Below are positions 2,667 through 12,110 of a stretch of DNA of 12,637 nucleotides, piece by piece; the stretch's first letter is position 1, and the number at the start of each line of letters is the position of its first letter. Below the pieces are notes generated by a model. That model ran no database searches. It was not told where the DNA came from and saw only the letters and a program-made list of their open reading frames with translations. Both the position numbers and the translations under genes were made by a program. Source of the stretch: Shewanella sp. (GTDB lineage: Bacteria; Pseudomonadota; Gammaproteobacteria; Enterobacterales; Shewanellaceae); assembly GCA_004195335.1 (NCBI GenBank), contig SDWK01001011.1, forward strand, positions 1 through 12,637, written 5' to 3'.

Positions 2667-2746
2667 ATTCATTGTCAGAATCGCAATTAGTGCTAAATGA
2701 ATTAAAAATAAAAGGGTTCCCCCTTTACCCTACTCGGAGACTTAGA

Positions 2747-4156
2747 ATGTCAGCTGAATCAGTTTTACAACAACTAGAAGAATTAGAAGTTAAGTTTGTT
2801 GATTTGCGTTTTACCGATACGATAGGTAAAGAGCAGCACGTTTCAATACCAAGTCATCAGGTTGATGCTGACTTTTTTGAAGACGGTAAGATGTTTGACG
2901 GTTCTTCAATCTCAGGTTGGAAAGGCATTAACGAATCAGACATGGTATTGATGCCAGATGCTGCAAGTTTCGTGCTTGACCCTTTCACAGCTGAAACCAC
3001 AGCGAACATTCGTTGTGACATTTTAAATCCTGGCACAATGACAGGTTACAACCGTGACCCACGTTCTATTGCTAAAAAAGCCGAAGAGTATTTACGCTCT
3101 ACCGGTATTGCAGACACGGTATTGATTGGTCCTGAGCCAGAATTCTTCCTCTTTGATGATGTTAAGTTCGGCGCAGACATGTCAGGTTGCTTCTACAAGG
3201 TAGATGCAGAAGAAGCAGCATGGAACTCAGGCACTCACTACGATGAAGGCAACAAAGGCCACCGTCCGACAGTGAAAGGTGGTTACTTCCCTGTTGCACC
3301 TGTGGATTCTTCACAGGACCTACGTTCAGCGATGTGTCTTGTTCTTGAAGAAATGGGACAAGTCGTTGAAGCACATCACCACGAAGTGGCAACAGCGGGT
3401 CAGAACGAAATCGCAACTCGCTTTAATACGCTTACGCTAAAGGCCGATGAAGTTCAGGTACTTAAGTACGTTGTTCATAACGTTGCTCACGCTTACGGTA
3501 AGACAGCAACCTTTATGCCTAAGCCGATCGTTGGTGACAACGGTAGCGGTATGCATGTTCACCAGTCTCTTGCTAAAGATGGTGTAAACCTTTTCGCCGG
3601 TGACAAGTACGGTGGATTGAGTGAAATGGCCTTGTTCTATATAGGTGGTATTATCAAGCATGCGCGCGCAATCAACGCATTTGCTAACCCATCGACTAAC
3701 TCTTATAAGCGCCTAATTCCACACTTTGAAGCGCCAGTAATGCTTGCATACTCGGCGGCAAACCGTTCAGCTTCTATCCGTATCCCATTGGTACCAAGTC
3801 CTAAAGGACGTCGTATCGAGCTTCGTTTCGGAGACCCAATGGCTAACCCATACCTGGCATTCTCTGCAATGCTAATGGCTGGTCTTGACGGTATCCAAAA
3901 TAAGATCCACCCAGGTGAAGCGATGGATAAAGATCTTTATGATCTGCCACCAGAAGAAGCAGCTGAAATCCCAACAGTTGCCACGTCACTGGAAAATGCA
4001 CTTGAGTGTCTGGATGCTGACCGTGAATTCCTGACTCATGGCGACGTATTCAGTAATGACTTTATCGATTCTTATATCAAACTTAAGTCTGTTGATGTTG
4101 AGCGCATAAACCAAACAACTCACCCACTTGAATTCGAGCTTTACTACAGCTTGTAA
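2747..4156 (+). CDS. glnA: Type I glutamine synthetase (GSI-beta)
   Basis: Glutamine synthetase makes glutamine from glutamate, ammonia and ATP and is the main entry for ammonium in the cytoplasm; GSI works as a dodecamer. From ATG 2747 the protein is 469 aa, the exact family length. Visible marks are the N-terminal beta-grasp segment with FVDLRFTDT (17-25), the metal-ligand region GPEPEFF (128-134), the ATP/glutamate segment GSGMHVHQS with His270, NRSASIRIP (339-347), and the adenylylation site [10 protein letters not shown] with Tyr398, so GlnE-type control is likely. I chose ATG 2747 because CGGAGA precedes it by 6 nt and the protein starts MSAES as in relatives. The upstream in-frame TTG at 2672 lies ahead of the predicted transcription start. 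Transcription is from an NtrC-activated sigma-54 promoter. A terminator follows directly, so it is probably monocistronic, unlike the E. coli glnALG operon. Confidence 0.98.
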
Positions 4157-4637: not shown

Positions 4638-4955
4638 ATGAACAATAAAATCAAAGCAACCTTAGTCTCATTGCCTCTACTCTTCACATCTACAAGCTAC
4701 GCTGCCATGTCAGAAATGTCTGTCTGCAATGACTGTTCAACCCAGGAAATTAAAACACTTATCGATAGAGACTCATCTGCAAATATTTATGTCGTAGACT
4801 TCGTAAACCGCACTGCACAGAAATTTACCTCAAGCGGTGAAGATGGCTCTCAGCCAATCGCAATAGCGATGTCAATTAGCGAGCTAAACACCATTAATCA
4901 ACGTTATGAGTACCGTAAAACACATTTACGAGCCCTTAACCCAAGTTCAAAATAA
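4638..4955 (+). CDS. Small secreted protein with a CxxC motif, function unknown
   Basis: I do not recognise a named family. The 105-aa product has a clear Sec signal peptide: basic start MNNKIK, hydrophobic core about 7-17, and a likely signal peptidase I site after SYA (about residue 22). The mature protein would be about 83 aa, periplasmic or secreted. It begins with a Cys pair, C30-ND-C33, near its N-terminus, followed by a short stretch around VYVVDF-like residues 50-55 and a polar, basic tail. The CxxC could form a disulphide or bind metal; neither is shown. AAGGAA lies 5 nt before ATG 4638. A CRP-like site is just upstream and a strong hairpin just downstream (4971-5007), so it looks like a single-gene unit. 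The complete signal peptide and good ribosome binding site make it a convincing gene. Confidence 0.8.
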   Translation: MNNKIKATLVSLPLLFTSTSYAAMSEMSVCNDCSTQEIKTLIDRDSSANIYVVDFVNRTAQKFTSSGEDGSQPIAIAMSISELNTINQRYEYRKTHLRALNPSSK

Positions 4956-5323: not shown

Positions 5324-5352
5324 TAACAAAAACACTAGACGACCGGTCTATT
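5323..5352 (+). promoter_or_regulatory. Putative sigma-70 promoter of the NemR-like gene
   Basis: TTAACA (5323-5328) and TCTATT (5347-5352) are separated by 18 bp; the -10 overlaps the right end of the 15-bp operator. The same arrangement (TTAACG at 6018, TCTACT at 6041, 17-bp spacer) occurs before yqhD, which supports both calls. The predicted leader is only about 12 nt with no visible Shine-Dalgarno. Confidence 0.45.
5336..5350. promoter_or_regulatory. Operator O1 of the NemR-like regulator
   Basis: TAGACGACCGGTCTA is a 15-bp inverted repeat (TAGAC / GTCTA with 5 bp between) ending 20 bp before the regulator's ATG. A copy with one base changed lies before yqhD at 6030-6044. Such a pair of matching palindromes next to a TetR-family gene and its neighbour is typical of autoregulated repressors. 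Confidence 0.85.
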
Positions 5353-5370
5353 ATCCATTATTCTAGTTAC

Positions 5371-5973
5371 ATGAAAACAGACACTCAACTGACACGCCAG
5401 CATATTATCGACTCTGGCTACACACTCATTTCCAGCAAAGGCTTCTCAAATGTTGGCCTGTCGCAGATCTTAAAATTTGCCGATGTGCCAAAAGGCTCTT
5501 TTTACCACTACTTCAAATCAAAGGAGCAGTTCGGTGAAGAGATCATTAATAGCTATTTCAAAACTTACCTAAGCGCAATCGATGAACTATTCGCCCCAAC
5601 GAAAGACTCTGGTCTAGAGCGTTTAATGGAATATTGGTTACGCTGGCAAGAGACTCAAAGCGATACTTGTGTCGATCAAAAATGCCTCGTCGTGAAATTA
5701 AGTGCCGAAGTTGCCGATCTGTCTGAGCCTATGCGTTTAGCATTAAAAACAGGCTCAGCAGGTGTAATCACTCGCATAGCAAACTGCATTGAAGCAGGTA
5801 TTGAGGACGGCTCAATTCCTGAAATGCATGGGTTTAATACCGCTGAAATGCTCTACCAGATGTGGCTAGGTGCTAGCTTGATGAATAAGCTAAGCCGAGA
5901 TCCAAAAGTAATTGAACGTGTACTAGCGGCTACTCGAAAGCAACTTGGCCAAACCGTTTCAGCAGTAAATTAA
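5371..5973 (+). CDS. nemR: TetR-family repressor, NemR-like electrophile/redox sensor
   Basis: The product is 200 aa, the length of E. coli NemR (199 aa). Residues 8-52 are the TetR helix-turn-helix, with VPKGSFYHYFKSKEQFG at 39-55. The ligand domain matches what I recall of NemR: KCLVVKLSAEVADLSEPMR (104-122) and YQMWLGASLMNKLSRD (162-177). Cys105 aligns with NemR Cys106, the reactive thiol, and Lys173 with NemR Lys175, its reported sulfenamide partner. Cys100 and Cys139 are extra thiols. By family knowledge, oxidised or alkylated NemR lets go of DNA. Inference: it represses itself (operator O1) and the yqhD-hsp31-gst unit (operator O2). No Shine-Dalgarno precedes ATG 5371, so translation may use a near-leaderless mRNA. 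A terminator after the gene separates it from yqhD. The symbol rests on motif similarity; a paralogue with another inducer is possible. Confidence 0.85.
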   Translation: MKTDTQLTRQHIIDSGYTLISSKGFSNVGLSQILKFADVPKGSFYHYFKSKEQFGEEIINSYFKTYLSAIDELFAPTKDSGLERLMEYWLRWQETQSDTCVDQKCLVVKLSAEVADLSEPMRLALKTGSAGVITRIANCIEAGIEDGSIPEMHGFNTAEMLYQMWLGASLMNKLSRDPKVIERVLAATRKQLGQTVSAVN

Positions 5974-5990
5974 CCAACAATATCTATCTC

Positions 5991-6020
5991 CCCGCCTATG
6001 ATTAAGGCGGGTATTTTTTA
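5991..6020 (+). terminator. Rho-independent terminator of the NemR-like gene
   Basis: CCCGCCT (5991-5997) / AGGCGGG (6005-6011) with a 7-nt loop is followed by a run of T (6014-6019). It makes the regulator gene its own unit and implies a separate promoter for yqhD. Confidence 0.88.
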
Positions 6021-6046
6021 ACGAATAACTAGACGACTGGTCTACT
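6018..6046 (+). promoter_or_regulatory. Putative promoter of the yqhD operon
   Basis: TTAACG (6018-6023) and TCTACT (6041-6046) are 17 bp apart, with operator O2 filling the spacer and part of the -10. The hexamers are weak, but the layout copies that before the regulator gene. Confidence 0.4.
6030..6044. promoter_or_regulatory. Operator O2 of the NemR-like regulator
   Basis: TAGACGACTGGTCTA is identical to O1 except for one central base (C to T). It lies 44 bp before the yqhD ATG. A further partial copy, GACTGGTC at 6062-6069, follows it and could extend repressor contact. Confidence 0.85.
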
Positions 6047-6087
6047 AACCTCGATGAATAAGACTGGTCGCAAAGATAGGAAAAATA

Positions 6088-7245
6088 ATGAACAGCTTTG
6101 ACTACTACAACCCAACACATATCAGCTTTGGTGAAGGCAAGATTGCCGAACTGGATAAGCTGGTCCCAAGCAAGGCCAAGGTACTAGTCCTTTTCGGCGG
6201 TAATAGTGCGAAACGCACGGGTACATTGGATGAAGTAAAATTGGCATTAGGCCAGCGAGATATTGTTGAATTTGGCGGCATAGAAGCCAACCCCACCTAC
6301 GAAACCTTAATGCAAGCCGTCGCCGTAATTAAAGAAGAGAAGATTGATTTTCTTCTGGCTGTTGGCGGCGGGTCCGTAATTGATGGGACTAAATTCGTTG
6401 CCGCTGCAGCGCTGTTTGAAGGTGAGCCTTGGGATATCCTGCTAAGTTGGGGCGCGAAGGTAACAGAGGCAATGCCATTTGGTACGGTGCTCACTCTGCC
6501 AGCAACCGGTTCAGAGATGAACAGCGCCAGCGTTATTACTCGAAAAGAGTTTCAAGCCAAACTCTCTTTCATGAGCAATCACGTATTTCCACAATTCTCA
6601 GTACTCGATCCCACTAAAACCTTCACACTGCCAGAGCGTCAGGTTGCTAACGGTGTTGTCGATGCCTTTATCCATATTACCGAGCAATACTTAACTTACC
6701 CAGTTAATGCGCCGGTGCAGGACCGATTCGCCGAAGGCTTACTACAAACTTTAATCGAACTGGGTCCACAGGCATTAAGTCAACCTGACGACTTCGATGT
6801 CAGAGCTAACCTGATGTGGGTCGCCACTATGGCACTGAGCGGCGTCATTGGTAAAGGTATCCCCCACGACTGGGCTACTCATATGATTGGCCATGAATTA
6901 ACCGCACTATACGACATCGATCATGCTCGCACTATCGCGATGATCTTACCCGGAATGCTTGATTGCCGACGTGATAGCAAACAAGAAAAGCTACTGCAAT
7001 ATGGCGAGCGAGTTTGGGGAATTACCCAAGGCTCTATTGATGAAAGAATCGATGCTGCTATTGCCAAAACTCGTGAATTCTTCGAAGCCATGGGGATCAA
7101 AACCCGCCTTTCTGATTATGATCTTACTGCAACAAGTATTGACGAAATCATGACTCAACTTGAAGAGCATGGCATGACAGCACTCGGTGAGAAACAAGAT
7201 GTCGATTTAGCCATGAGTCGCAAAATTCTAGAACGTAACTTATAG
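6088..7245 (+). CDS. yqhD: YqhD-type NADPH-dependent aldehyde reductase (iron-containing ADH family)
   Basis: It reduces short and medium-chain aldehydes, including lipid-peroxidation products and glyoxals in E. coli, to alcohols using NADPH in the cytoplasm. The 385 aa run collinear with recalled E. coli YqhD (387 aa). The N-terminal Rossmann part carries FGGNS (36-40, the NADP-specificity loop) and VGGGSVIDGTKF (92-103), then TLPATGSE (136-143). The C-terminal helical domain has the four metal ligands Asp192, His196, His265 and His279, matching Asp194, His198, His267 and His281 of YqhD, in VVDAFIH, DWATHMIGHE and DIDHA. AGGA lies 6-7 nt before ATG 6088. It is the first gene of a probable three-gene unit and carries operator O2 in its promoter. 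In E. coli yqhD is controlled by YqhC, an AraC-type activator, so placing it next to a NemR-like repressor is a different wiring. Confidence 0.93.
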   Translation: MNSFDYYNPTHISFGEGKIAELDKLVPSKAKVLVLFGGNSAKRTGTLDEVKLALGQRDIVEFGGIEANPTYETLMQAVAVIKEEKIDFLLAVGGGSVIDGTKFVAAAALFEGEPWDILLSWGAKVTEAMPFGTVLTLPATGSEMNSASVITRKEFQAKLSFMSNHVFPQFSVLDPTKTFTLPERQVANGVVDAFIHITEQYLTYPVNAPVQDRFAEGLLQTLIELGPQALSQPDDFDVRANLMWVATMALSGVIGKGIPHDWATHMIGHELTALYDIDHARTIAMILPGMLDCRRDSKQEKLLQYGERVWGITQGSIDERIDAAIAKTREFFEAMGIKTRLSDYDLTATSIDEIMTQLEEHGMTALGEKQDVDLAMSRKILERNL

Positions 7246-7256
7246 ACGATGACCAG

Positions 7257-7286
7257 TTGCAGGTCGCTCAAGCCGATCGCCTGCAA
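7257..7286. repeat. Intercistronic hairpin between yqhD and the Hsp31-like gene
   Basis: TTGCAGG (7257-7263) pairs with CCTGCAA (7280-7286) around a 16-nt loop, 11 bp after the yqhD stop. There is no T-run, so it is more likely an mRNA processing or stability element than a terminator. Confidence 0.45.
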
Positions 7287-7319
7287 GCTAAAACCTTACA
7301 GACTATACAGGATAATAAA

Positions 7320-7997
7320 ATGAACATATTGATGGTACTGACTTCACACGACAAACTCGGCGATACAGGGTTAAAAACAGGTTTTTGGTTAGAGGAGTTT
7401 GCGAGTCCTTACTACCGCTTTAAAGACAAGAGCTTCACCATCACCTTAGCGTCGCCAGCAGGCGGACAGCCGCCACTGGATCCAACCAGTGAGCAACCAG
7501 ACTTTCAAACTGCTGCAACAGACCGTTTCAATCAAGACAGTGAAGCCCAGCAACATTTGGCAACCACTCTGCCTTTGGCCAGTATTAAAGCCGAAGATTA
7601 TGATGCCATCTTCTACCCTGGCGGTCATGGTCCATTGTGGGATCTGACTAACGATGCGCACTCAATTGCATTAATCGAAGCCTTTTATCAGGCAAATAAG
7701 CCTGTCGGCCTAGTGTGTCATGCTCCGGGAGCCCTTAAAAATGTAAAAGCTGCCGATGGCACGCCATTGGTACAAGGTAAGCATGTTACTGGTTTTACCA
7801 ACACCGAAGAAGCTGCCGTTCAACTAACTGATATCGTCCCTTTTTTAGTCGAGGATATGATGCAGGAAAACGGCGCTTTGTATAGCAAAGGCGATGACTG
7901 GGCAAGTTACCTTGCCGTTGATGGACACTTAGTGACGGGGCAAAATCCTGCGTCATCTGAAGTCGTTGCTGACGAGATGATTAAACAGTTAGGTTAA
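7320..7997 (+). CDS. DJ-1/PfpI family protein, Hsp31-like (possible glutathione-independent glyoxalase)
   Basis: The 225-aa protein has the class I glutamine amidotransferase-like fold of the DJ-1/PfpI superfamily. The nucleophile elbow is GLVCHAPGAL (130-139) with Cys133-His134, and Glu25 in GFWLEEF (21-27) matches the conserved acid that activates the cysteine. YPGGHGPLWDL (99-109) is the oxyanion-side loop. This Glu/Cys/His set and length match yeast Hsp31-type proteins, which convert methylglyoxal to lactate without cofactor and may have chaperone roles. I started at ATG 7320 because AGGA lies 7 nt before it and the first strand reads MNILMVLTS; the in-frame TTG 7257 would add 21 residues unlike the family and falls in a hairpin. 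It sits 74 bp after yqhD and probably shares its transcript. The glyoxalase role is inference; deglycase or protease claims in this superfamily are disputed. Confidence 0.88.
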   Translation: MNILMVLTSHDKLGDTGLKTGFWLEEFASPYYRFKDKSFTITLASPAGGQPPLDPTSEQPDFQTAATDRFNQDSEAQQHLATTLPLASIKAEDYDAIFYPGGHGPLWDLTNDAHSIALIEAFYQANKPVGLVCHAPGALKNVKAADGTPLVQGKHVTGFTNTEEAAVQLTDIVPFLVEDMMQENGALYSKGDDWASYLAVDGHLVTGQNPASSEVVADEMIKQLG

Positions 7998-8019
7998 CTC
8001 TGCTTATCTTCCCCTTCAC

Positions 8020-8052
8020 GACGGTGCACCTGATGGCGCACCGTCTTCTGCT
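8020..8052 (+). terminator. Hairpin between the Hsp31-like and GST genes, weak terminator or attenuator
   Basis: GACGGTGC (8020-8027) pairs perfectly with GCACCGTC (8038-8045) around a 10-nt loop and is followed by a broken T-rich stretch (TTCTGCTTT). It may let part of the transcript continue into the GST gene 22 bp further on, giving lower GST expression. Confidence 0.5.
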
Positions 8053-8073
8053 TTATCAAGCAAAGGAAACCAC

Positions 8074-8703
8074 ATGATCACCTTGCACCATCTTAATAGA
8101 TCTCGCTCTAAACGCATTATTTGGTTACTCGAAGAGCTAGGTTTGGATTATCAAATCAAAGCCTATCAAAGAGATAGCGAGACATTTCTGGCTCCACCAG
8201 AGCTGACCGCAATTCATCCGTTAGGTAAATCTCCTGTCATTGAATATGACCAGCAGGTAATCGCAGAATCAGGGGCAATAACTGAGTTCCTTATTGACAC
8301 TCATGCCGCTGGAACATTAGCGCCCGAAAAAGGCACAACAGAGTATGTAGAGTACCTTCAGTGGCTACATTTTGCTGAAAGCTCAGCAATTTTACCGCTT
8401 TTGCTAAGAATGTTTGTTGCCAAAGATGGCTGCAAAACCAATTTCTTAGAGGGCTATGCGGCAATTGAAGTGAAGAAGATCCTCAATTATTTCGATGACT
8501 CTCTGGAAAATAAAACCTATTTAGTTTCTGAGAAATTAACTGGTGCTGACATTATGATGTCCTTCATCGTCGAGTTATTAATTAATAGCGGTGAAATTAC
8601 AAAATACCAAAATATTGCCACCTATTCGGAACAGCTAGCAACGCATTCGAGTTATCTTAAAGCTGCCACAATAGAGCTCAATAACGATATTACTCAAGCC
8701 TAA
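8074..8703 (+). CDS. Glutathione S-transferase family protein
   Basis: Glutathione transferases join glutathione to electrophiles in the cytoplasm. The 209 aa show a thioredoxin-like N-terminal domain (about 1-77) with HHLNRSRSKRIIWLLEELGL (5-24, exactly the active-site loop and helix 1), the cis-proline in GKSPVIEY (Pro54), and the glutathione gamma-glutamyl contact AESGAI (Glu65-Ser66). The helical C-terminal domain (about 88-200) has the N-capping box LTGADI with Asp159. No Tyr stands in the usual position near residue 7-9, so a Ser/Arg-type active site (Ser10, Ser12, Arg9 or Arg11) is likely; substrate unknown. AAGGA lies 6 nt before ATG 8074. As last gene of the yqhD unit it fits a conjugating role beside two aldehyde-removing enzymes. 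Confidence 0.88.
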   Translation: MITLHHLNRSRSKRIIWLLEELGLDYQIKAYQRDSETFLAPPELTAIHPLGKSPVIEYDQQVIAESGAITEFLIDTHAAGTLAPEKGTTEYVEYLQWLHFAESSAILPLLLRMFVAKDGCKTNFLEGYAAIEVKKILNYFDDSLENKTYLVSEKLTGADIMMSFIVELLINSGEITKYQNIATYSEQLATHSSYLKAATIELNNDITQA

Positions 8704-9470: not shown

Positions 9471-9550
9471 ATAAGTTAATTAACACTATAAAATTAATTA
9501 GTTAAGCTTTTAGTCAATCAGATATGACTCAGTGGAAGAAAGTTGCAGAG

Positions 9551-9567
9551 TGCACCAATTTGGTGCA
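9551..9567. promoter_or_regulatory. Perfect NtrC-binding site 1 before glnL
   Basis: TGCACCAATTTGGTGCA is an exact match to TGCACCA-N3-TGGTGCA. It shares four bases (TGCA, 9564-9567) with the next site. Confidence 0.93.
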
Positions 9568-9580
9568 CCATGATGGTGCA
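9564..9580. promoter_or_regulatory. Perfect NtrC-binding site 2 before glnL
   Basis: TGCACCATGATGGTGCA is a second exact consensus match, its centre 13 bp from that of site 1 and ending 21 bp before the glnL ATG. The position suits NtrC repression of its own operon, as at E. coli glnLp. Confidence 0.93.
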
Positions 9581-9601
9581 GTAAGTCAACTTGGAGCACT
9601 G

Positions 9602-10642
9602 ATGGATATAAAACACCTGTTCAATAACCTTGTCACAGCAGTCATGGTCATAGATGTTGATCTCAAACTTTGCTATGCCAACGCAGCGGCAGAGCAACTC
9701 TTAGGTGTGGGAAGCCACCGCTTAACCGAGCATGTTCTATCAGACAGTTTCCAAATCCTTGGCGTAAGTACTGATTTATTGAGTAAAGCTATCAGGGAAA
9801 ACCAGGGACTCACAGTGAATACCGCAGCTTTGGTAACATTGGATAACCAGCATCATACCGTGGATATCACGCTCACCCCCTTGGAGCAGGAACAGGGATT
9901 AGGCCTATTAGAGCTCAGACAAGTCGATCAACAAAGGCGTATTCATCAACAACTGACTTTAGATGCACAACAACAAGCCGCTCAATACTTGGTGAGAAAT
10001 CTGGCTCATGAGATAAAAAACCCGTTGGGTGGCCTTCGTGGTGCAGCGCAACTGCTCTCTCGTGAACTACATGATCCACAGTTGAATGAGTTTACCGATC
10101 TTATTATCGAGCAAGCCGATCGCCTAAGAAATCTGGTGGATAGATTACTCGGTCCCCAGAGGCCAACCCAACATAGCCTACATAATATTCATGAAGTGGT
10201 CCAAAAAGTACTCAACCTTGTGAACATGGCCCTTCCAGCGAACATCACACTGAAGCAAGATTACGACCCTTCCATACCAGATATTCAAATGGATCCTGAA
10301 CAACTGCAACAAGCCGTACTCAACATAGCTCAAAATGCGATTCAGGCTCTCGACACCGCTGGCGGCGAAATATTGATAAGAACCCGCACGCAGCACCAAG
10401 TCACTATTGGCACCTTGAGACACAAACTTGTATTAGCCTTGTCCATCATAGATAACGGCCCAGGTATCAAACCTGAACTATTAGACACACTTTTTTACCC
10501 TATGGTGACAGGTCGTGATAACGGCTCAGGGCTTGGTTTATCGATTGCACATAACTTTGCTCGACTACATGGCGGTAGAATTGATTGCCATTCAAAACTT
10601 GGGAGGACGGAGTTCACTATCTTACTTCCCATAAAAAACTAA
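9602..10642 (+). CDS. glnL: Nitrogen-regulation sensor histidine kinase NtrB (NRII)
   Basis: NtrB is a soluble kinase/phosphatase that phosphorylates NtrC when nitrogen is short, under PII control. From ATG 9602 it is 346 aa (E. coli 349). It has an N-terminal PAS domain (about 5-115), the H-box NLAHEIKNPLGGLRGAAQLL with phospho-accepting His136, the N-box VLNIAQNAIQAL (239-250), the G1 box DNGPGI (284-289), the F-region LFYPMVTGR and the G2 box GSGLGLS (308-314). I reject the longer in-frame start ATG 9524: it has no ribosome binding site, adds 26 residues absent in E. coli NtrB, and those codons are the NtrC operators. GGAG at 9593-9596 lies 5 nt before ATG 9602. A -10-like TATAAA/TAAAAT at 9487-9494 could give a leader of about 100 nt holding both operators, but no good -35 is seen. 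glnG follows after 52 bp. Confidence 0.96.
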   Translation: MDIKHLFNNLVTAVMVIDVDLKLCYANAAAEQLLGVGSHRLTEHVLSDSFQILGVSTDLLSKAIRENQGLTVNTAALVTLDNQHHTVDITLTPLEQEQGLGLLELRQVDQQRRIHQQLTLDAQQQAAQYLVRNLAHEIKNPLGGLRGAAQLLSRELHDPQLNEFTDLIIEQADRLRNLVDRLLGPQRPTQHSLHNIHEVVQKVLNLVNMALPANITLKQDYDPSIPDIQMDPEQLQQAVLNIAQNAIQALDTAGGEILIRTRTQHQVTIGTLRHKLVLALSIIDNGPGIKPELLDTLFYPMVTGRDNGSGLGLSIAHNFARLHGGRIDCHSKLGRTEFTILLPIKN

Positions 10643-10694
10643 TGAAAATAAGCAAATAACACAGATTATAAATAAGAGCGGAGCGGGGTAAATC

Positions 10695-12110
10695 ATGAGT
10701 ATAACAGAACAAGTTTGGGTGCTCGATGATGACAGCTCTATTCGCTGGGTAGTTGAAAGAGCGTTAAAGGGCGCCAGTATTAGCAGTGCCAGCTTTGCAG
10801 CAGCCGAATCACTTTGGGATGCGCTCGAACTGGCACAGCCTAAAGTCATTATTTCAGACATTAGAATGCCAGGTACGGATGGATTGAGTCTACTCGAGCG
10901 CATTCAAATTCATTACCCCCACATTCCTGTGATAATAATGACGGCACATTCAGATTTAGATAGTGCAGTTAGCGCATATCAAGCCGGGGCGTTCGAATAT
11001 CTGCCTAAGCCATTTGATATTGATGAAGCAATTACACTTGTAGAACGAGCATTGACTCACTCAACAGAGCAAACAAGTAATACCCCAGAGGAGATACAAG
11101 TCAAAGCGCCAGAGATCATTGGTGAAGCGCCAGCAATGCAGGAAGTATTTCGCGCGATTGGCCGTCTTTCAAAATCCTCTATCAGCGTGCTGATTAATGG
11201 TCAGTCCGGAACGGGTAAGGAGCTGGTTGCAGGTGCACTGCATAAACACAGCCCACGAAAAGAGAAACCATTTATCGCGATTAATATGGCCGCGATTCCT
11301 AAAGATCTCATTGAGTCTGAGCTTTTCGGCCATGAGAAAGGTGCATTTACCGGTGCAGCAGGAGTTAGACAAGGCAGGTTTGAACAGGCAAATGGAGGTA
11401 CTCTGTTTCTGGACGAGATCGGTGATATGCCACTCGATGTGCAAACACGATTATTAAGAGTGTTAGCGGATGGTCAATTTTATCGAGTTGGTGGACACTC
11501 TCCAGTTCAAGTTGATGTAAGGATCATTGCAGCCACTCACCAAGATCTTGAACTGTTAGTACAGAAAGGAGGTTTTCGAGAAGACCTATTTCACCGCCTT
11601 AATGTCATAAGAGTTCATCTGCCACCATTATCGCAGCGACGTGAAGATATCCCTCAGCTCGCTCGTCATTTTCTCTCTTCTGCCGCTAAAGAGATAGCGG
11701 TTGAACCTAAGGTACTCACCTCTGAAACAGCTAAAAAACTCTCAGAACTACCTTGGCCTGGAAATGTACGTCAGCTTGAAAACACATGCCGCTGGTTGAT
11801 GGTCATGGCATCCGGGCAGGAAATTTTACCTCAAGACCTCCCCCCAGAGCTGCTCAAGGAACCAAATAAATCTAATATCGAGCGTTCAGGAGAAGCTGCC
11901 GATTGGCAGGAGTCTTTAAAGAACTGGATTAATCAGCGTCTGAAGGAAGGTGAAAGTGATCTGCTTACCGAAGTGCAACCTGCATTTGAGCGTATATTAC
12001 TTGAAACAGCCCTAGAGCATACTAACGGCCATAAACAGGAAGCGGCAAAACGTCTGGGGTGGGGTCGCAATACACTGACAAGAAAATTGAAAGAACTGTC
12101 TATGGAATGA
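10695..12110 (+). CDS. glnG: Nitrogen-regulation response regulator NtrC (NRI), sigma-54 activator
   Basis: Phosphorylated NtrC binds enhancer sites and drives sigma-54 polymerase at glnA and other nitrogen genes. The 471 aa hold a receiver domain (about 5-120) with Asp11-Asp12-Asp13, phospho-acceptor Asp55 in ISDIRMPG, Thr83 and Lys105; a central AAA+ domain (about 142-372) with Walker A GQSGTGKE (169-176), the sigma-54 contact loop GAFTGA (216-221) and Walker B TLFLDEIG (236-243); and a Fis-type helix-turn-helix at the C-terminus (about 435-468, HKQEAAKRLGWGRNTLTRKL). Every key residue is present. It is the last gene of the glnL-glnG operon; a GGGG-containing purine-rich site lies just before ATG 10695. 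Its targets in this window should be the sites before glnA and before glnL. Confidence 0.98.
   Translation: MSITEQVWVLDDDSSIRWVVERALKGASISSASFAAAESLWDALELAQPKVIISDIRMPGTDGLSLLERIQIHYPHIPVIIMTAHSDLDSAVSAYQAGAFEYLPKPFDIDEAITLVERALTHSTEQTSNTPEEIQVKAPEIIGEAPAMQEVFRAIGRLSKSSISVLINGQSGTGKELVAGALHKHSPRKEKPFIAINMAAIPKDLIESELFGHEKGAFTGAAGVRQGRFEQANGGTLFLDEIGDMPLDVQTRLLRVLADGQFYRVGGHSPVQVDVRIIAATHQDLELLVQKGGFREDLFHRLNVIRVHLPPLSQRREDIPQLARHFLSSAAKEIAVEPKVLTSETAKKLSELPWPGNVRQLENTCRWLMVMASGQEILPQDLPPELLKEPNKSNIERSGEAADWQESLKNWINQRLKEGESDLLTEVQPAFERILLETALEHTNGHKQEAAKRLGWGRNTLTRKLKELSME

Follow-up and report, generated by a model that had tools for sequence, protein, structure and literature searches.

We describe here a four-gene cassette in a stretch of 12,637 nucleotides from Shewanella sp. 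(assembly GCA_004195335.1, contig SDWK01001011.1; hereafter the window), in which a gene for a TetR-family repressor is followed by yqhD, a DJ-1/PfpI gene and a glutathione S-transferase (GST) gene. The cassette is probably a local thiol-switch regulon of the CurR/NemR type. An exact 15-mer, TAGACGACYGGTCTA, stands at position 5336 ahead of the regulator and again at position 6030 ahead of yqhD. This layout is no peculiarity of the organism but a modular regulon found in many relatives. As the same switch precedes other detoxification genes in those relatives, the cassette seems to be a variation on a known defence and not a new one. What is new here, we infer, is the part the operator may play in transcription: we tentatively suggest, with somewhat less than even confidence, that a single 15-bp operator takes two promoter roles, as -35 for the repressor gene, whose transcript would be leaderless, and as extended -10 for the enzyme genes.

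The two operators and their conservation

The four genes are all on the + strand, in the order regulator (5371..5973, 200 aa), yqhD (6088..7245), DJ-1 (7320..7997) and GST (8074..8703, 209 aa). The gaps between the enzyme genes are 74 and 76 bp, in agreement with the order, strand and spacing of about 75 bp given by the initial annotation of this DNA. Profile searches assign the products to the families TetR_N/TetR_C_13, Fe-ADH, DJ-1_PfpI and GST_N/GST_C, i.e. the one local regulator, two operators and three detoxifying enzyme families that had been proposed are present. The matching operators claimed before the regulator and yqhD proved to be identical over 15 bases: O1, TAGACGACCGGTCTA (5336..5350, + strand), and O2, TAGACGACTGGTCTA (6030..6044, + strand). 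When up to 3 mismatches were allowed, the window had 3 matches, namely O1, O2 and O2 read backwards; 2 of 200 shuffled sequences reached this number (mean 0.32). A genome-wide search, suggested earlier as a check, found no further exact or 1-mismatch copy in the 5.93 Mb of the own genome beyond O1 and O2. At up to 3 mismatches this genome holds 81 matches, as opposed to 343 for a backwards control pattern, therefore the two exact sites alone are conspicuous. One of the five 2-mismatch matches, on contig C682, was inspected as a possible regulon member; it lies among chemotaxis-receptor-like, MOSC-like and small lipoprotein-like open reading frames (ORFs; names read from translations) and was judged a chance match.

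The genus was searched in 60 genomes, of which 32 carry exact 15-mers, 57 altogether; the backwards control has 3 matches. Two sets of loci were compared. The genus set consists of 32 loci from 31 genomes with an exact site, the own genome excluded; the second set of 81 loci consists of the window and the best 80 of at least 575 relatives. Having been selected by regulator similarity, this second set favours close regulators; it also shares loci with the genus set. O1 (up to 2 mismatches) is found upstream of the regulator in 80 of the 81 loci and O2 after the regulator in 75 (it is absent from L005, L044, L052, L076, L078 and L080). With both strands scanned, all 80 O1 and 75 O2 sites point with the transcription of the gene behind them, and where the enzyme gene runs the opposite way (L044, L078 and L080) its sites, four in total, are reversed as well. 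Beyond the two expected places there are 5 matches in 917 kb, three of which are the reversed sites of L044 and L080 (the fourth reversed site, in L078, was tallied as upstream in this count). When the sites are aligned, O1 and O2 alike have an invariant T at position 17, and the centre, GACYG, is asymmetric. A class-wide search gave 18 sites in 14 of 369 genomes, four of which, the own genome included, have two sites; the other ten have a single site each, a number close to the 9 matches of the backwards control, and this search was therefore not used to judge breadth.

Close relatives would share such sites anyway, so the 15-mers might be a functionless leftover of common descent. We regard this as extremely improbable: the 15 bp are near-invariant while the regulators drop to about 50% identity and distant flanks lose all likeness, three of the five matches outside the expected places precede reversed enzyme genes, and the site accompanies the cassette even when the latter is unlinked. 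In one genome of the genus (G026, locus L207) an unlinked yqhD-DJ1 pair carries the exact 15-mer, correctly directed, and the likely regulator, 46% identical, is on another contig (L192), again with an exact and correctly directed site. The possibility that the 15-mer represents two overlapping dimer sites was also considered and judged unlikely, the inner palindromes being offset by 1.5 bp. A separate observation concerns genome G080, where an exact 15-mer (L204:2535) precedes a different, more distant TetR gene whose product is 26% identical to NemR; a Shine-Dalgarno-like stretch is present, and no enzyme cassette was found at this locus.

The regulator and its likely signal

The regulator had been described as NemR-like. 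Its membership of the NemR family and the equivalents of NemR Cys106 and Lys175 are confirmed, but sequence comparison places it nearer to Pseudomonas CurR than to Escherichia coli NemR. The score is 262.3 bits against the CurR model NF058643 and 115 bits against the second-best NCBIfam model, AcuR (cut-off 247). In comparisons with structures, Protein Data Bank (PDB) entry 3rd3 gives 214 bits and NemR (4yze) 134 bits; in the alignment the regulator is 39% identical to NemR. Structures 3rd3 and 4l62 we take to be PA2196 of Pseudomonas aeruginosa, the entries themselves saying just 'transcriptional regulator'. The regulator family is large, with 5879 proteins at E ≤0.001 among 6117 candidates. 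Five of nine scored regulators pass the CurR cut-off (L025, L044, L058, L061 and L078; four from Pseudomonas and one from Rouxiella), and the exact 15-mer is upstream of all five; the P. aeruginosa locus itself is outside this comparison.

Cys105 and Lys173, the counterparts of NemR Cys106 and Lys175, are invariant (81/81 loci), and so are Trp165 and Gly167; Cys100 is found in 70 and Cys139 in 72 of the loci. Sensing of bleach or thiol-reactive compounds by the regulator is likely on the basis of these residues. CurR of P. aeruginosa reportedly senses sodium hypochlorite (NaOCl) and N-ethylmaleimide (NEM), as the title of a 2024 paper by Duang-Nkern has it. In the mechanism that we propose, the repressor would occupy O1 and O2 and shut the regulator and enzyme promoters. 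The repressor would bind DNA less tightly once Cys105 is oxidized or alkylated, a reaction in which Lys173 or Cys100 may take part; hypochlorous acid (HOCl) and strong thiol-reactive electrophiles are the likeliest signals. Derepression would then supply YqhD for the NADPH-dependent reduction of aldehydes to alcohols, the DJ-1 enzyme for the cofactor-free conversion of glyoxals to hydroxyacids, and the GST-like enzyme as well, together with extra repressor that would reset the switch once the stress ends. In the relatives the same switch stands ahead of other sets of CurA, YqhD, DJ-1, GST and NemA-like genes.

A number of points weigh against this reading. Firstly, the regulator misses the equivalog cut-off of the CurR model (262 versus 300 bits). 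Secondly, NemR Cys21 and Cys116 have no cysteine counterpart in the window regulator, where the alignment has Ile20 and Ala115. According to excerpts of PMC5297802 both cysteines are essential for the electrophile response of NemR, therefore glyoxal sensing is not transferable from the E. coli protein. Thirdly, AltR, a relative of NemR, responds to thiosulfinates and not to NEM or diamide (PMC13178969, in part), which means that NemR relatives differ in their signal. Nor does conservation of the lysine prove a sulfenamide switch, since a NemR-based sensor with Ala in place of the Lys175 equivalent continues to respond to NaOCl (PMC8748444, in part). Finally, L005, L052 and L076 have yqhD after the regulator yet no O2 within 2 mismatches, and L082 has no O1 within the same limit. 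Taken together, the evidence gives reasonable support to the type of switch but not to a particular signal. Glyoxal sensing is unsupported.

Two alternatives concern the signal. The regulator may be a true functional equivalent of NemR, in line with the initial annotation, i.e. a general sensor of electrophiles (glyoxal, methylglyoxal, quinones) as in E. coli, where the responses of NemR to HOCl and electrophiles are described in excerpts of PMC5297802 and PMC3739934. The common family, the 39% identity and the retained Cys106 and Lys175 equivalents argue for it, as do the cassette enzymes, whose families act on aldehydes and glyoxals (PMC5297802, in part). We nevertheless consider it rather unlikely, as Cys21 and Cys116 are absent, the E. 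coli nemR repeat has 16 bp and is not the 15-mer, and the cassette has neither nemA nor gloA. Less likely still is a narrow-ligand sensor, like AltR (thiosulfinates) or AcuR (acrylate), that would be tuned to one natural marine electrophile. It would be consistent with the indifference of AltR to NEM and diamide (PMC13178969, in part), with AcuR as second-best model and with an enzyme set that varies by lineage, as if the main toxin differed. However, the invariance of Cys105, Lys173, Trp165 and Gly167 in the 81 loci, whatever the cassette, favours one common signal.

It is useful to compare the proposed thiol-switch regulon with known systems. CurR-curA of P. aeruginosa (PA2196-PA2197) has the nearest regulator family, and its family members that pass the cut-off share the 15-mer, but the window lacks curA, has yqhD, DJ-1 and GST, and scores below the equivalog cut-off. 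The NemR-nemA-gloA system of E. coli has in common with the window an autoregulated TetR repressor, the HOCl cysteine and a similar inverted repeat before the regulator. This repeat, TAGACCGACTGGTCTA, has 16 bp, one base more than the 15-mer, and ends 14 bases before the ATG, with no Shine-Dalgarno sequence seen there; no 15-base stretch in the E. coli nemR locus is within fewer than 4 mismatches of the 15-mer. Cys21 and Cys116 are found in NemR only, the enzymes of the two systems differ, and gloA of E. coli is reached by read-through (excerpts of PMC3739934). The YqhC-yqhD-dkgA system of E. coli shares YqhD, 59% identical; YqhC is an AraC-type activator (excerpts of PMC5297802), in whose place the window has a TetR repressor. 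In Pantoea ananatis the NemR-related AltR is self-repressing, cysteine-dependent and governs a tolerance cluster (alt), but its operator, CAATCTAC-N6-GTAGATTG, and its thiosulfinate signal are different (excerpts of PMC13178969).

In the E. coli nemR-nemA gap (L169:4641-4651) the sequence CAGACGACCGG follows the terminator-like hairpin of nemR; it has 10 consecutive bases of the 15-mer, with 5 mismatches over 15. The stretch AGACGACCGG past the nemR terminator is possibly a decayed O2, at the place where relatives carry the second operator, but this is a post hoc observation without a control. Neither the 15-mer nor the E. coli 16-mer was found as text in the literature searched, nor was a paper joining NemR, Shewanella and yqhD; subscription journals were mostly outside this search.

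The enzymes and the exchange of cassette members

The yqhD product is an NADPH-dependent aldehyde reductase-like Fe-ADH that is identical to E. coli YqhD at 228 of 384 positions (59%) over the full length. Its best NCBIfam model is PRK15138, and it scores 589 bits with NF011717, under the cut-off of 645; the next-best yqhD-like genes of the own genome are 24-27% identical. In the DJ-1 protein the Glu25/Cys133/His134 set noted previously is present and invariant in six aligned sequences, the window included. The protein is not HchA (41 bits versus a cut-off of 365 with the NCBIfam model), and its catalytic residues predict an Hsp31-type, glyoxalase III-like product. The GST-like protein has both the N- and the C-terminal domain (Pfam GST_N and GST_C above gathering scores; 140 bits with structure 4hz4), and its activity is predicted. 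The three enzymes probably destroy reactive aldehydes and related poisons. As stated in the initial annotation, the cassette is without nemA or gloA; OYE/NemA-like genes are found on other contigs of the own genome (best 46% identity), while gloA was not searched for outside the cassette. On another contig of the own genome (L220; G000:C349:3097-3249) there is a DJ-1-like fragment in a 93-aa open frame, with 63% identity over 51 residues, apparently left over from a second copy.

Of the cassette members, GST is the least stable. It is missing in Shewanella canadensis and in G011, whose regulators are 94 and 95% identical to that of the window; S. canadensis is the nearest named locus among the relatives listed. 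Both loci keep the DJ-1/GST hairpin, the Shine-Dalgarno sequence and the first GST codons, after which comes the sequence preceding a DUF4124 gene, and a deletion of GST is therefore inferred (the remnant was read from the aligned letters, the aligner itself having placed the stretch elsewhere). The hairpin (8020..8045, + strand) may be a partial terminator or an RNA processing site; the fold of the gap (7995-8078) has a z of -4.37, with 0/200 shuffles equally stable. One may ask whether the operators govern mainly the regulator, yqhD and DJ-1, the expression of GST starting elsewhere or being uncoupled through the hairpin. The stability of the hairpin, which the terminator scan partly lists as terminator-like, the apparent loss of the gene in the nearest relatives and the 15 tree changes that its presence needs (7 for yqhD and 8 for DJ-1) would all fit. 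On the other hand, the T tail of the hairpin is weak, neither a 15-mer nor a consensus + strand promoter lies just ahead of GST, and in many Vibrio and Photobacterium loci GST follows curA. We consider this explanation improbable.

The gene order is conserved in relatives. The 32 genus loci have regulator-yqhD-DJ1-GST in 15 cases, and ten more start with regulator-yqhD (regulator-yqhD 6, regulator-yqhD-DJ1 4); the rest are regulator-curA (3), regulator-DJ1-GST (1), regulator alone (1) and two loci with no such regulator (L207 and L204). In the set of 81 the cassette genes were counted from -2.5 to +4.5 kb of the regulator, some of them running the opposite way; L057 and L075 end within 3.5 kb, and 'nemA' stands for similarity to E. 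coli NemA. The combinations are curA+gst (27), curA (12), yqhD+DJ1+gst (10), yqhD+DJ1 (5), yqhD+nemA (5), yqhD (4), curA+DJ1 (4), yqhD+curA+DJ1 (3), DJ1 (3), yqhD+curA+gst (2) and yqhD+curA (2), as well as nemA, curA+DJ1+gst, curA+DJ1+nemA and gst+nemA in one locus each. The first known gene after the regulator is curA in 47 of the 81 loci and yqhD in 29; the CurA identity was above the NCBIfam cut-off in 3/3 sequences tested. On a quick tree of 82 regulators, in which 25 of 79 inner branches are well supported and 29 are open, the choice of yqhD or curA as first gene needs 3 changes, the presence of yqhD 7, of DJ-1 8 and of GST 15. Thus the switch stays constant while the enzymes behind it are exchanged, though not freely, since the set follows lineage. 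The three-enzyme set is probably old in the group yet dispensable. The earlier idea that this organism had joined three different chemistries thus gives way to a modular regulon shared by many relatives.

In eight Vibrio loci (L026, L027, L041, L045, L046, L067, L071 and L074) the curA or curA-gst unit is followed by a gene of cluster c11, about 725 aa long, which is reversed in L050; the L041 copy was identified as the catalase-peroxidase KatG.

In the window, the cassette and two small genes are located between glnA (2672-4156) and ntrB-ntrC (9524-12110), which form one operon in E. coli. Among the relatives listed, ntrB is downstream in 14 of 17 named Shewanella loci. A 105-aa ORF (4638-4955) has an apparent signal peptide and no Pfam or NCBIfam match, and several Shewanella loci have relatives of it ahead of the regulator.

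A promoter model for the operator

The regulator gene is followed by an intrinsic terminator (5991..6019, + strand) with a 7-pair stem and then TATTTTTT. Its fold has a z of -3.16 and 0/200 shuffles are equally stable, while the terminator scan gave 2 terminator-like matches, not above the shuffled mean of 3.5. Because of this terminator the enzymes probably need a promoter of their own, and O2 sits where it would be expected.

At O1 a TANNNT hexamer is found in 77 of 80 loci with its first base at operator positions 23-25, and in 68 of the 80 this base is at position 24; it is present in 44 of 45 representatives (<75% identity), as opposed to a mean of 4.5 and a maximum of 14 in 500 shuffles. 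In the window this place is taken by a predicted -10, TATTCT (4/6; 5359..5364, + strand), and 17 bp ahead of it operator positions 1-6 would form the -35, TAGACG (4/6; 5336..5341, + strand). In most loci 7-9 bases separate the last base of this -10 from the A of the regulator ATG. Shine-Dalgarno sequences (at least 4 nt in bases -20 to -4) precede the regulator in 15 of the 74 loci, out of 80 fetched, that have a usable regulator start, while random positions have 16%. The other genes are different in this respect (yqhD 28/29, DJ-1 20/22, GST 35/37, curA 45/51, ntrC 7/7; ntrB 0/1). The regulator transcript thus probably starts at or near the ATG, i.e. it would be leaderless. Leaderless repressor genes are known from lambda (cI) and Tn1721 (tetR).

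O2 has no comparable -10, the mean TATAAT score at position 24 being 1.73, which is background level. TTGACA-like hexamers (4/6) peak ahead of O2 at -13 (36% of loci), -12 (25%) and -15 (24%), peaks that arise partly from the T tract of the terminator; positions -12 and -13 are 17-18 bp ahead of TCTANT (operator positions 12-17). The enzyme promoter of the window would accordingly be read as a predicted -35, TTAACG (4/6; 6018..6023, + strand), and a predicted extended -10, TGG-TCTACT (6038..6046, + strand; operator positions 9-17), that overlaps O2. It seems from these positions that the left arm of the operator serves as -35 at O1 and the right arm as -10 at O2, and such a dual role would explain the fixed direction of the operator. 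Two results go against this model. TCTANT scores 4.59/6 at O1, equal to O2, so the regulator transcript could also start about 12 bases before the ATG. A promoter scan of the window at a threshold of 9/12 lists neither of the proposed promoters, because both count 8/12.

The regulon reading is sound in outline, whereas the claim of a feature specific to this organism and the emphasis on glyoxal are unsupported. On this reading many members of the genus, and other proteobacteria too, probably have YqhD, the target of an AraC-type activator in E. coli, controlled by a TetR thiol switch, and the 15-mer points to the regulon within the genus, in one case even for an unlinked gene pair. As a caution, the signal should not be presumed to be methylglyoxal; hypochlorite and NEM come first. 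The fixed direction of the operator and the probable leaderless start make up a concrete promoter model that can be tested with reporters. If the dual promoter role is true, it would account for a site that is asymmetric and yet hardly varies among loci of gamma- and betaproteobacteria, despite the exchange of enzymes. Ribosomes that initiate on leaderless messages during stress could then translate the repressor mRNA, and nemRA of E. coli, the textbook case, would be derived, its second operator having been lost.

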